From: Lysinibacillus sp. 2017
Lineage (GTDB): Bacteria; Bacillota; Bacilli; Bacillales_A; Planococcaceae
Direction of reading: 5' to 3'
Length of the DNA: 64,000 nt
Assembly: GCF_003073375.1 (NCBI RefSeq)
Contig: NZ_CP029002.1
Coordinates: 2,280,001-2,344,000 of the forward strand
Positions 46,666 to 50,389 of the stretch are shown in pieces. Below the pieces are notes generated by a model. It saw nothing but the letters and a program-made list of their open reading frames with translations. It had not been told where the DNA came from and searched no databases. Position 1 is the stretch's first letter, and each line of letters opens with the position of its first letter. Both the position numbers and the translations under genes were made by a program.

Positions 46666-47202
46666 TTAATTAAAAGGTTGTACATCCACGCTTACAACCA
46701 CATTTTCATCCATTTCTGAGCGGATTATATACACAATTTCATTAACCTGTTGTTTCGACACTTCGTCTGACATAATTGACACCGCTACTTTTTCATCCTC
46801 AATTCGAACTAGGGCATCTGAGTAATTCATTGACTTTATTAACATTTCTAACATCGCTTCAGACGATTCGCGTTTGATGAGCTTATCCATTTCATCAAAT
46901 GCCGCATTTTTTTCTTCTGCCGATAACTGTGCGGATGCAATCTTTTGAGTTAATTGCTCGCGTAATTGACTCCGTTTATTATCCAATTCCAAACGAATTT
47001 CTTGAAATAAGTCACTCTCTGAATTGACTGGTTGCGTTGTACTTTGATTCACTCCGACAATTTCCGTATTGTCTAGTGCATCATCTGTAAAAATTGCCAT
47101 AAAATTAGGTCCTTGCTTATCATTAAAAACATAATATACGGAAATTACCGCAATTAAGCTGACGAATGTTAACAACCATACTGTTCTTTTTTTCACCTTC
47201 AC
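46666..47202 (-). CDS. spoIIIAH: Stage III sporulation protein AH
   Basis: A 178-aa protein with an N-terminal membrane helix (TVWLLTFVSLIAVISVYYVF) and a mother-cell-side domain with the YscJ/FliF-like core. QLSAEEKNAAFDEMDKLIKR and KSMNYSDALVRIEDEKVAVS are typical AH blocks. It binds SpoIIQ across the engulfment membranes to form the channel feeding the forespore. It starts within the stop of spoIIIAG (GTGA overlap). About 40 residues shorter than the B. subtilis form. Confidence 0.9.
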   Translation of the reverse strand: MKVKKRTVWLLTFVSLIAVISVYYVFNDKQGPNFMAIFTDDALDNTEIVGVNQSTTQPVNSESDLFQEIRLELDNKRSQLREQLTQKIASAQLSAEEKNAAFDEMDKLIKRESSEAMLEMLIKSMNYSDALVRIEDEKVAVSIMSDEVSKQQVNEIVYIIRSEMDENVVVSVDVQPFN

Positions 47203-47579
47203 TTGCCTTCCTCCTTTAATTGCATCGGGACGATTTGAATACGATGTGATGGAATTTGCAGAACGTTACCAACCGCCTCTTTTAGTAAGCTTTTTACATG
47301 CGCGTTATGTGCACCTTCTGCCACAATGATAACACCAGATAATTGTTGCTGTTGTGAGACTGCTAAAAAACCATTGTTTGTAGCCGATTTTTCATAATGA
47401 AAATATACTTGTACTTGTCCGACTGAATGAATTTCACTTAGGAGATTTGCTAACTGCTGTTCATCTGTCAGTTTGCTCGGCTGATTGAAATTTCCCGCGA
47501 AAACAAATAGCATGCTTAATGCTATGAAAATGATGCCCCCTATGAGAAGGAGCGGTCGGTTTGCATTCCTCTTTTCCAC
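47199..47579 (-). CDS. spoIIIAG: Stage III sporulation protein AG, shortened
   Basis: A 126-aa protein with a membrane helix (PLLLIGGIIFIALSMLFVFA) and a single ring-building domain (LLSEIHSVGQVQVYFHYE, GVIIVAEGAHNAHVKSLLKE, VLQIPSHRIQIVPM). The B. subtilis AG is about 229 residues and has an inserted beta-triangle that shapes the large ring; that insert appears absent here. It follows AF and overlaps AH. Confidence 0.85.
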   Translation of the reverse strand: MEKRNANRPLLLIGGIIFIALSMLFVFAGNFNQPSKLTDEQQLANLLSEIHSVGQVQVYFHYEKSATNNGFLAVSQQQQLSGVIIVAEGAHNAHVKSLLKEAVGNVLQIPSHRIQIVPMQLKEEGK

Positions 47580-47643
47580 ATAGTTACGTTATACGCCACC
47601 TTTACTTCGTTTTTTTACACAATGTATGTGCCACTCAACTTTT

Positions 47644-47778
47644 TTATGCAAATAATGAAACAATGTAGCTCGATACCGTCAAATACAGTGCAAGTTTCAC
47701 GTAGGATTGCCATTCCTTTTCCTCTGTGAACATCAATAAGCTACTACCCAGCATCACAATTAAAAAAATTTCAATCAT
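47644..47778 (-). CDS. Very short SpoIIIAF-like protein
   Basis: A 44-aa frame in the exact place of spoIIIAF. ATG follows TAGGAGG and overlaps the spoIIIAE stop (ATGA). It consists of two short hydrophobic helices joined by TEEKEWQSYVKLALY, like the membrane part of SpoIIIAF, whose B. subtilis form is about 200 aa with a soluble ring domain. Here the soluble part is missing and the next 64 bases are noncoding. It may be a real mini form or a remnant. Confidence 0.6.
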   Translation of the reverse strand: MIEIFLIVMLGSSLLMFTEEKEWQSYVKLALYLTVSSYIVSLFA

Positions 47779-48686
47779 GAAGATCCTCCTAATGATAATT
47801 GTGTAAACACGATGCATAGTAAAACGATAAATACGATGGAAAAGCCAAGTAACAAGGCAACCGCGCAAAGTACTAGCAATGTTTTGCCGACATCATCAAA
47901 CAAACTGCTCATTCGCGTATTAGAAAATGGTTCAACAAACGCACCAATCACTTTAAATAGAAGTGCATGTAACAATAAAACAATCGCTGGATAAAATGCC
48001 GCCGTCCAAACGACCGTTAAAAAACCAAGTCCTACAACACTAGAAACCGTTGATTGTGTTTTTTGGAAAAAGGAGAGTCCTTCAACGATTAAGTTCCCAA
48101 TAAGCGGAATATTCGATTCGATCAGTTTTTTTATAGGCGATTTAACTGCTTCATTTAATTGAAAAAATGCGACTCCTGAAAATGTTAAGATTGAGGTTAA
48201 CGCGATTACGGCTGCTAAAATAATACTTAACACCGACGTACGTAATAATTCTGCAGCTTTCGAAAATGAAATGGCTGGATAAATTTTTGTACAAACGTCT
48301 AAAAATAATGCGCACAGTAACGTTGGTATTAATAACTTTGTAGAAATGAATAGGATGGCTTGTATGAGAAAAATAATAATCGGATTCCATGCAAGGATTG
48401 TAAATATATTCTGTATGGCGATTAGTAGCAGGGTAATAACGGGTATCACCGCAATATAAAAATGTTGTAACACTTGGATTAATTCATAGAGTACGACAAA
48501 TGCATCGATAACTTTTTGGGCAAAAATTACGATAAATATATAAATAAATAGTTGTTCGATGATCATCGATTGCTGTGGAATGAGCGCAATAAGAAGTAAA
48601 TAAAAAAGGATATAAAGTGCGGCATACAGAAATGATGTAACAAGCGAATTTATGGGTTCGGAAAACATTGACAAGAAAACATCCAT
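47775..48686 (-). CDS. spoIIIAE: Stage III sporulation protein AE
   Basis: A 303-aa polytopic protein (about seven helices) with the AE pattern: SISFSKAAELL-like AISFSKAAELLRTSVLSIIL, LTFSGVAFFQLNEAVKSPIKK and LIGNLIVEGLSFFQKTQSTV. I start at ATG 48686 (MDVFLSMFSEP) after AGAAAGG, which overlaps the AD stop. The B. subtilis protein is about 100 residues longer at the N-terminus, so the exported first part is missing here. Confidence 0.9.
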   Translation of the reverse strand: MDVFLSMFSEPINSLVTSFLYAALYILFYLLLIALIPQQSMIIEQLFIYIFIVIFAQKVIDAFVVLYELIQVLQHFYIAVIPVITLLLIAIQNIFTILAWNPIIIFLIQAILFISTKLLIPTLLCALFLDVCTKIYPAISFSKAAELLRTSVLSIILAAVIALTSILTFSGVAFFQLNEAVKSPIKKLIESNIPLIGNLIVEGLSFFQKTQSTVSSVVGLGFLTVVWTAAFYPAIVLLLHALLFKVIGAFVEPFSNTRMSSLFDDVGKTLLVLCAVALLLGFSIVFIVLLCIVFTQLSLGGSS

Positions 48687-49063
48687 TACATAAACCTTTC
48701 TAGCAAGTTTACGAGCGTTTGAAATGCTGGTTGTAAAATTTTTAGCCAATATGAAACGACTGTAATACGAATGGAAAGCTTCACCACAGTGGCAATCGCT
48801 TCATACTCAAATTGGTCAAGCAATGCACAAATCATTTCTCCTATGACGAATAGAAAGGCAGTAAATAATAGGCTTTTGCTGTACGGCACAGCTTGAAATA
48901 CATTGCTTAACTGTTGCCATAAAGGAATAAGCTGCCCCATCATGACAAACTGCATCAAAATAAAGAAGAGAATCACTAGAATAATTGGATGCAGCTTGTC
49001 CATTGATTGTTTCAATAGCAATAACAAAAGCAAAAAGATTATGCTCGCAAATGCTATTGTCAT
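48686..49063 (-). CDS. spoIIIAD: Stage III sporulation protein AD
   Basis: A 125-aa membrane protein with four helices of normal AD length: FASIIFLLLLLLLKQSMDKL, HPIILVILFFILMQFVM, SLLFTAFLFVIGEMICALLDQF and ISVVSYWLKILQPAF-like VSYWLKILQPAFQTLVNLL. Starts directly after spoIIIAC. Part of the membrane base of the feeding-tube complex. Confidence 0.88.
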   Translation of the reverse strand: MTIAFASIIFLLLLLLLKQSMDKLHPIILVILFFILMQFVMMGQLIPLWQQLSNVFQAVPYSKSLLFTAFLFVIGEMICALLDQFEYEAIATVVKLSIRITVVSYWLKILQPAFQTLVNLLERFM

Positions 49064-49273
49064 TTAACTAATGGCCGTTAACCATTGGAAAAATACAACA
49101 ATTTCCTGGAAAAACAGCCTTAAAAACCTTATAAGCTCCACCGTCATGTAAAGATACGCAACAAAAAATAAAAAAAATGAAAACTCTTTTTTTCCGATTT
49201 GCTCAAAAAAGATATGAAGAAGTGCTATTACTAAGCCAACACCCGCCACTCGAAGCACATCTTGCAACTCCAA
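49064..49273 (-). CDS. spoIIIAC: Stage III sporulation protein AC
   Basis: A 69-aa two-helix membrane protein (VLRVAGVGLVIALLHIFFEQ, EFSFFLFFVAYLYMTVELIR) of normal AC length. TTG start with GGGAGGAGGG upstream. It is the first gene of the operon in this genome: spoIIIAA and spoIIIAB, which normally precede it, are not between it and efp. Confidence 0.88.
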   Translation of the reverse strand: MELQDVLRVAGVGLVIALLHIFFEQIGKKEFSFFLFFVAYLYMTVELIRFLRLFFQEIVVFFQWLTAIS

Positions 49274-49295: not shown

Positions 49296-49303
49296 ACTGT
49301 ATG
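49296..49303 (-). promoter_or_regulatory. Candidate sigma-E -10 box before spoIIIAC
   Basis: CATACAGT on the minus strand, about 23 bases before the spoIIIAC start, fits the sigma-E -10 consensus CATACAHT. No convincing -35 box is seen at the normal distance (GTGTGAT lies slightly far). SpoIIIA operons are sigma-E controlled in B. subtilis. Confidence 0.4.
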
Positions 49304-49333: not shown

Positions 49334-49376
49334 TAAAAAAACGCATAAATGATTGAATTCATTCATGCGTTTTGTT
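49334..49376 (-). terminator. Terminator after the nitronate monooxygenase gene
   Basis: AACGCATGAATGA/TCATTTATGCGTT on the minus strand followed by TTTTTTTATG. It separates the metabolic gene from spoIIIAC. Confidence 0.8.
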
Positions 49377-49384
49377 TAAACAAA

Positions 49385-50389
49385 TTATTTTAATAAGTTA
49401 TCTACAATTTCTTGCACGGAAGCAGCTTTTGCTAAATAGCTATTTTCGCCCATCCATAGTGATAAATATTCAGGTTTATTTTGCTTAGCACTTTCTTGAC
49501 GAATTTGAAGTGTTAAATAATGCTGTAACGGATATGGGGCTACTACTGCTTCTTGTAATTTTTCAGTAAATTTATTTTTTAATCCGCGCGCATATTTACC
49601 TGTGAACGCACGTGTTAATGTTGTTGCTTTTTCTTCGGATTGTAAAATCGCATTTTTATGTACATTACTCGCTCCACATTCATGAGCCGTTAATAGTACG
49701 GTCCCAATTTGAACCATACTTGCACCTAGGTTAAACATTTCCTGAACGTGTTCAGAAGTCATAATTCCCCCTGTTGCAATTACAGGAATCTTCACAGTTT
49801 CCGCAACTTGCTTCACCAATTCGTGTGTTGGAATTAACTCCATTGGCTCTGTAAATGACCCACGGTGCCCACCTGCTTCATTCCCTTGTACAACGACTGC
49901 ATCAAAGCCAGCTTCTTCAACTGCAAGCGCTTCCGCAACTGTCGTTGAAGTACCGATTAATAAAATGTTATGTGCTTTTAATCGTGCGATCGTTTCTTTT
50001 TCAGGAATACCAAATGTAAACGAAACTATTTTCACTTGTTCATCAATTACAGCTTGAACTTGCCCTTCAAATACTTCGCCTGAAATGACACGCTGCGTAT
50101 TCGGAATCCCTAATTCTTCATAAATCGGTTGCAGCGCTACACGCGCATTTTGCAATACATTTATATCAATTCGAGGTTCCTCTTGAATGAATAAGTTCAC
50201 GCTAAATGGTTTATTCGTTAATTTTTTTACATCTTGAATAAATTTTCTTGTTTGTTCACCATTTAAATAACCTGCGCCAATTGAACCTAATACCCCCGCA
50301 TCACTACATGCAGCAACAAATTCTGGGGTTGTAATGCCTGCCATTGGTGCTTGAATTATTGGCTTTTCAACTGCTAATTTTTTAATCAC
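49385..50389 (-). CDS. Nitronate monooxygenase family protein
   Basis: A 334-aa FMN TIM-barrel enzyme: KPIIQAPMAGITTPEFVAAC at the start, GYLNGEQTRKFI, VVVQGNEAGGHRGSF (the family histidine region), and IPVIATGGIMTSEHVQEMF binding FMN phosphate. It oxidises alkyl nitronates or acts as a related flavin enzyme. GTG 50389 chosen after AAAGGGAG; longer frames cross the efp terminator. It occupies the place where spoIIIAA-AB stand in B. subtilis. Confidence 0.87.
   Translation of the reverse strand: MIKKLAVEKPIIQAPMAGITTPEFVAACSDAGVLGSIGAGYLNGEQTRKFIQDVKKLTNKPFSVNLFIQEEPRIDINVLQNARVALQPIYEELGIPNTQRVISGEVFEGQVQAVIDEQVKIVSFTFGIPEKETIARLKAHNILLIGTSTTVAEALAVEEAGFDAVVVQGNEAGGHRGSFTEPMELIPTHELVKQVAETVKIPVIATGGIMTSEHVQEMFNLGASMVQIGTVLLTAHECGASNVHKNAILQSEEKATTLTRAFTGKYARGLKNKFTEKLQEAVVAPYPLQHYLTLQIRQESAKQNKPEYLSLWMGENSYLAKAASVQEIVDNLLK

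Follow-up and report, generated by a model that had tools for sequence, protein, structure and literature searches.

The spoIIIA operon of Lysinibacillus sp. 2017, which occupies 49273–46666 on the minus strand of the 64,000-nucleotide (nt) stretch of DNA analyzed here (hereinafter the window), is probably a working, ancestrally reduced version of this operon characteristic of the family Planococcaceae, coding for a SpoIIIA–SpoIIQ (A–Q) complex without a motor of its own. Using the last two letters of each name for its genes and proteins, the operon has the order AC-AD-AE-AF-AG-AH, with AC as the first gene:

49064..49273, minus strand: spoIIIAC, 69 amino acids (aa) from a TTG start; PF06686 at 19.2 bits (cut-off 24) and TIGR02848 at E 1.4e-6, 28.7 bits (cut-off 56.65)
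48686..49063, minus strand: spoIIIAD, 125 aa; PF06686 below cut-off (E 0.0014, residues 73-119), recognized by a hidden Markov model of its own family and by position
47775..48686, minus strand: spoIIIAE, 303 aa when started at the conserved ATG and 324 aa when started at a TTG (48749); PF09546 at E 5.4e-26, model positions 74-317
47644..47778, minus strand: mini-spoIIIAF, 44 aa with two helices, overlapping the AE stop codon
47199..47579, minus strand: spoIIIAG, 126 aa from a GTG start; a transmembrane helix and a single ring-building motif with no beta-triangle
46666..47202, minus strand: spoIIIAH, 178 aa with an intact ring-building motif; PF12685 at E 8.5e-25

Thus, the Pfam and NCBIfam models recognize AE and AH well and leave AC, AD and AG below their cut-offs. 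No further gene is found in the window among the tightly packed AC–AH, and the flanking order pepQ-efp-AC..AH-accB-accC is conserved in the family, with efp upstream and accB and accC downstream in the window. A first-pass annotation, made from the letters of this stretch, had the operon begin at spoIIIAC and assigned the same gene order and coordinates, which stand; several of its further claims are taken up below.

The source genome is a single contig of 3,737,915 bases with a completeness of 99.99%. For comparison, we sampled 151 genomes of the family Planococcaceae as delimited in GTDB, in 114 of which AE was found at 115 places spanning 13 genera, the other 37 being devoid of AE. A class-wide sample of 151 genomes yielded 113 with AE, eight of these in Planococcaceae, and 27 AE loci from outside the family served as the outgroup. 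An order-level sample of 120 genomes overlaps the family sample, and its 20 listed rows are all from Planococcaceae.

At all 115 AE places in the 114 family genomes, a hydrophobic frame of 43–59 aa lies between AE and AG. Automated reading picked up such a frame, opening with a standard start codon close to the AE stop, in 104 of the first 114 places read, with four of the frames then extended; the other 10 were read by hand because their conserved start lacks an ATG, GTG or TTG. A profile of these frames, when compared using hhalign with the N-terminal hairpin of canonical AF, gave a probability of 95.2% (E 2.9e-8), as against at most 0.8% for control profiles of AA, AB, AD, AE, AG and AH; the Solibacillus-type frames on their own reached 89.5%, with 6% for the best control. 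The hairpin profile was built from 23 of the 27 outgroup loci, leaving out L134 and L140 (missed by the pattern), L150 (wrong open reading frame) and L147 (badly cut). AlphaFold2 models the window's 44-aa peptide as helices at residues 2-17 and 21-42 (mean predicted local distance difference test score 84), in keeping with the two-helix peptide of the first-pass annotation, and the protein ends shortly past the second helix. The family versions thus display both the N-terminal membrane hairpin and the position between spoIIIAE and spoIIIAG expected of SpoIIIAF (PF09581), and are devoid of its C-terminal soluble ring-building domain. In tblastn searches, 22 AF ring domains from outgroup loci recovered 21 of the 27 outgroup loci and none of the 114 family loci; the full-length AF profile was built from 22 outgroup loci. 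PF09581 itself matches in five of the 151 family genomes, never at an AE place, and two of these (G118 and G148) have no listed AE. In the window, only 64 nt separate the AF stop from the AG start, and there is therefore no room for a longer AF frame or a ring domain. Across three genera, pN is lower than pS in 360/360 pairs and dN/dS (the ratio of nonsynonymous to synonymous divergence) is about 0.11 in 202 unsaturated, non-independent pairs, a substitution pattern indicating that purifying selection acts on mini-AF. As judged from these comparisons, AF is reduced to a conserved hairpin rather than lost.

Some members of one genus (g5) of the family show an unusual use of start codons in this region. 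Their spoIIIAG frame has an isoleucine codon (ATT, ATC or ATA) after the conserved AAGAAGGGTGA, where the related locus L006 has an ATG. In 12 of 16 g5 loci (L005, L009, L010, L011, L015, L016, L017, L019, L020, L022, L024 and L030) this codon is accompanied by an in-frame stop just upstream, pointing to apparent AUU/AUC/AUA initiation; in L026, L027 and L044, an ATG lies upstream in the spoIIIAG frame instead. The g5 mini-AF likewise has no ATG at the conserved start, and in 11 loci (L005, L009, L010, L011, L017, L019, L020, L022, L024, L030 and L044) an ATA overlaps the AE stop codon, an arrangement that may represent coupled non-AUG initiation of mini-AF.

The motor genes are missing both from the operon, as the first-pass annotation had observed, and from the rest of the genome as far as profiles reach. 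For AA, PF19568 had no match in the source genome, in any of the 151 family genomes or in the 120 genomes of the order-level sample, with the Bacillus subtilis positive control being detected. TIGR02858 at E<=10 yielded just four weak matches in the source genome, namely an open reading frame that we take to be Rho, followed by ComGA, and two others at E 0.08 and 0.25; PF00437 recovered one protein, ComGA. For AB, PF09548 had no match in the source genome and a single sub-threshold one among the 151 family genomes (21.8 bits, cut-off 32.5). When 27 AA and 24 AB proteins taken from outgroup loci served as tblastn queries, each set matched 27/27 outgroup loci and 0/114 family loci. Upstream context was read from the 84 long family loci; the other 30 of the 114 extend only about 1.5 kb to each side of the AE match, and the absence of AA and AB upstream of AC there rests on the genome searches. 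The SpoIIIAA ATPase and SpoIIIAB of the canonical complex were hence detected by neither profile searches nor tblastn. Of the two alternatives in the first-pass annotation—a different ring make-up, or AA and AB encoded elsewhere—we reject the second within the reach of PF19568, TIGR02858, PF09548 and PF00437, and the first gains support from the reductions of AF, AG and AE common to the family.

The missing N-terminus of AE, also remarked on in the first-pass annotation, proves to be a family trait. The AE frame is exactly 303 aa in 55 of the 114 family loci (in the window, from the ATG at 48686), as compared to 384–483 aa in the 27 outgroup loci, both measured from the first start codon. An alignment of 18 family and 13 outgroup AE proteins shows that the family versions lack the signal peptide and N-terminal ectodomain. 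In tblastn searches, the 27 outgroup AE N-termini matched 27/27 outgroup and 0/114 family loci; in contrast, the C-terminal part of AE was recovered in all 114 family and all 27 outgroup loci, as was AH.

AG combines a transmembrane helix with a ring-building motif and is related in sequence to B. subtilis SpoIIIAG, as expected of a TIGR02830 protein, with a score of 52 bits against the curated equivalog threshold of 147.7. Between strands 1 and 2 of the motif, where the canonical protein has the beta-triangle that builds a beta-barrel collar in the ring, 20–38 residues are present in 24/24 aligned family proteins vs 65–67 in 20/20 outgroup proteins (a hand-chosen 24 of 114 and 20 of 27); a regular-expression measure of this insert, which failed on 23 family and 6 of the 27 outgroup proteins, was dropped in favor of the alignment. 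Hence, AG is predicted to consist of a transmembrane helix and one ring-building motif without the beta-triangle, bearing out the single ring domain of the first-pass annotation. Of AE–AH, AH has been reduced least, with 172–222 aa in the 114 family loci and 178–305 aa in the 27 outgroup loci.

All 105 AE-bearing genomes of the class-wide sample outside Planococcaceae (matched by eye) have a PF09581 AF above the cut-off, with the match covering only part of the profile in 13 of them. The 27 outgroup loci carry AA-, AB-, AE-, AF-, AG- and AH-sized genes in canonical order, excepting the AF frame of L150; Pfam was used to verify the outgroup AA and AB in 3 of the 27 loci, and tblastn detected both in all 27. 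The reduction therefore marks one family, and no intermediate state between the full and reduced operons was seen among the family loci and the 27 outgroup loci. By these comparative data, the reduction is not a local decay of the operon in one strain.

On the side of its partners, the source genome contains a PF08486 (SpoIID) gene followed by a gene for a 218-aa M23 protein (L151:4681-5337), which we read as SpoIIQ from its position and M23 domain; a further frame is presumably SpoIIID. B. subtilis SpoIIQ is longer, at about 283 aa. Thus, of the components of a canonical A–Q complex, AC, AD, the AE core, AH and a SpoIIQ-like M23 protein are present, the last as found in the source genome. As for GerM, with its two GerMN domains, PF10646 matches in 32 of the 151 family genomes, 20 of them above the cut-off, with one match each. 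The PF10646-like stretch of the source genome (L157:403-2138) falls in a 430-aa open reading frame adjoining one that we take to code for an extracytoplasmic function sigma factor, and is therefore probably not GerM. This 430-aa protein may be an anti-sigma factor that carries a GerMN-like domain.

Three further features lie upstream of spoIIIAC:

49385..50389, minus strand: nitronate monooxygenase gene (PF03060, E 1.1e-89), between efp and spoIIIAC and outside the operon
49338..49373, minus strand: terminator-like stem after this gene, 15 pairs followed by a T tail
49296..49303, minus strand: sigma-E-like -10 element CATACAGT, lying 23 nt upstream of where spoIIIAC starts

The first-pass annotation correctly placed a nitronate monooxygenase gene with its own terminator here; its further suggestion that this gene fills the space of AA and AB does not hold in general. 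Such a gene is upstream of AC in 38 of the 84 long loci, with 44 having efp and no such gene and two having neither. In 33 of these 44, the gap between efp and AC is at most 400 nt (up to 2533 nt in the others), and 42 retain the full flanking order, ruling out its insertion as the cause of the loss of AA and AB. Terminator-like sites of this kind number 9 in the window vs 2.4 in shuffles. The pattern CATA[CT]ANT, which we take to fit the sigma-E -10 consensus, is found in the roughly 120 nt preceding AC at 62 of the 84 loci, as against 118 of 4200 mononucleotide shuffles, and in 61 of the 62 at about -40 to -21 of the assumed AC start; this -10-only scan was loosened after a stricter two-box sigma-E pattern had matched in 0/84 loci, and was written with the window sequence in view rather than blind.

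Under the reading that we favor, the family's reduction has removed the motor pair of AA (the ATPase) and AB, together with the parts that in Bacillus project between the two membranes, namely the AE ectodomain, the AF ring domain and the AG beta-triangle. What is kept would be a membrane base of AC, AD, the AE core and the AF hairpin, and two ring-building proteins, AG and AH, facing SpoIIQ. We predict that rings are still built by AG and AH, with the AF hairpin bound to the AC/AD/AE base, and that the complex spans both membranes, acting as a passive conduit or tether rather than an ATP-driven secretion machine. More tentatively, and with a little less than half our confidence behind it, we propose that the spore formers of this family use a motor-less mother cell–forespore conduit with two ring proteins, and that AA–AB, the AE ectodomain, the AF ring domain and the AG beta-triangle constitute one dispensable functional unit, since the family loci lack all of these parts and the 27 outgroup loci have all of them, with no intermediate seen. 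If so, any exchange would have to draw its energy from a source other than the complex.

Of the other explanations, one that deserves serious attention, unlikely as we find it, is that the remaining proteins merely act as a zipper or tether for engulfment via AH and SpoIIQ, there being no channel in Planococcaceae. The losses do fall on the secretion-like parts, and the least-reduced AH and the SpoIIQ-like protein would suit such a role; against this, AC, AD, the AE core, the AF hairpin and AG are also conserved, and a pure AH–Q zipper would not need them. We likewise think it unlikely that the complex is still driven by ATP, with unrelated or distant proteins encoded elsewhere supplying the roles of AA and AB. 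Such a motor might be expected as B. subtilis requires the Walker motifs of AA (PMC2703783). Moreover, given the extent to which AG, AF and AE have diverged, a divergent AA could escape detection, and ComGA, as the sole PF00437 protein found, could in principle moonlight. However, the four profiles returned just the Rho-like and ComGA-like frames and the two matches of E 0.08 and 0.25, the packed operon has no extra gene in the window, and AB, which would be expected to partner AA, is missing as well. Very doubtful is the decay of the operon in a lineage in the course of losing sporulation, with mini-AF and the short AG as remnants: the 37 family genomes without AE and the absence of several parts would agree with this, yet the same reduced set recurs at 115/115 AE places in 13 genera, the low dN/dS of mini-AF extends over three genera, and members of the Planococcaceae/Lysinibacillus group sporulate despite the absent genes (PMC7924749). 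Finally, an assembly or frameshift artefact hiding AA, AB and a long AF, named in the first-pass annotation as the refuting case (a frameshift near 47580-47650), has a negligible probability, as the genome is a nearly complete single contig, the reduction of AF, AG and AE recurs in 114 genomes, and the 64 nt before AG cannot hold a ring domain.

That Planococcaceae have lost AA, AB and AF has been published before. A survey of 2012 placed AA, AB, AD and AF among the genes that Lysinibacillus sphaericus lacks, and disregarded this genome as not reliable enough (PMC3533761); one of 2021 extended the loss of AA, AB and AF to Planococcaceae, along with SpoIIM, SpoIIB and GerM, leaving the mechanism open (PMC7924749). 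The latter states that one Jeotgalibacillus keeps AA, a genus not identified among our sampled genomes. A partial literature search found no earlier description of the AF hairpin as conserved, or of shortened AG and AE. Our results thus correct the record that AF is lost in Planococcaceae, and single out the membrane hairpin as the portion kept under selection. More generally, they indicate that some spore formers can do without components that the standard laboratory bacterium requires. The AA motifs are needed for sigma-G activity in B. subtilis (PMC2703783), while altering Walker B of AA has a cost of only about threefold in Clostridioides difficile (PMC4605598). A family that keeps the A–Q complex with neither an ATPase gene nor a beta-barrel ring of its own offers a natural minimal version, which predicts that the AE ectodomain, the AF ring and the AG beta-triangle work together and would allow experiments to tell the feeding-tube, secretion and zipper models apart.

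In comparison with known systems, our findings agree with both surveys in that AA, AB and canonical AF are not found in Planococcaceae. They differ in that the surveys have AF as absent and AD as absent in some members (AG too in the 2021 discussion), whereas we find AC, AD and AG frames and mini-AF at AE loci. Unlike its B. subtilis counterpart, the family operon begins at AC, with no AA or AB, an AE without the signal peptide and ectodomain, an AF without the ring domain and an AG without the beta-triangle. It resembles the canonical B. subtilis spoIIIA/A–Q system in the order AC–AH before accB-accC, the AE core, the ring motifs of AG and AH, and a SpoIIQ-like gene elsewhere. Beyond sporulation, the nearest known systems are the rings of PrgK domain 2 (type III secretion) and of RBM2 of the flagellar FliF, from which the family AG differs in that its sequence relationship is to SpoIIIAG.
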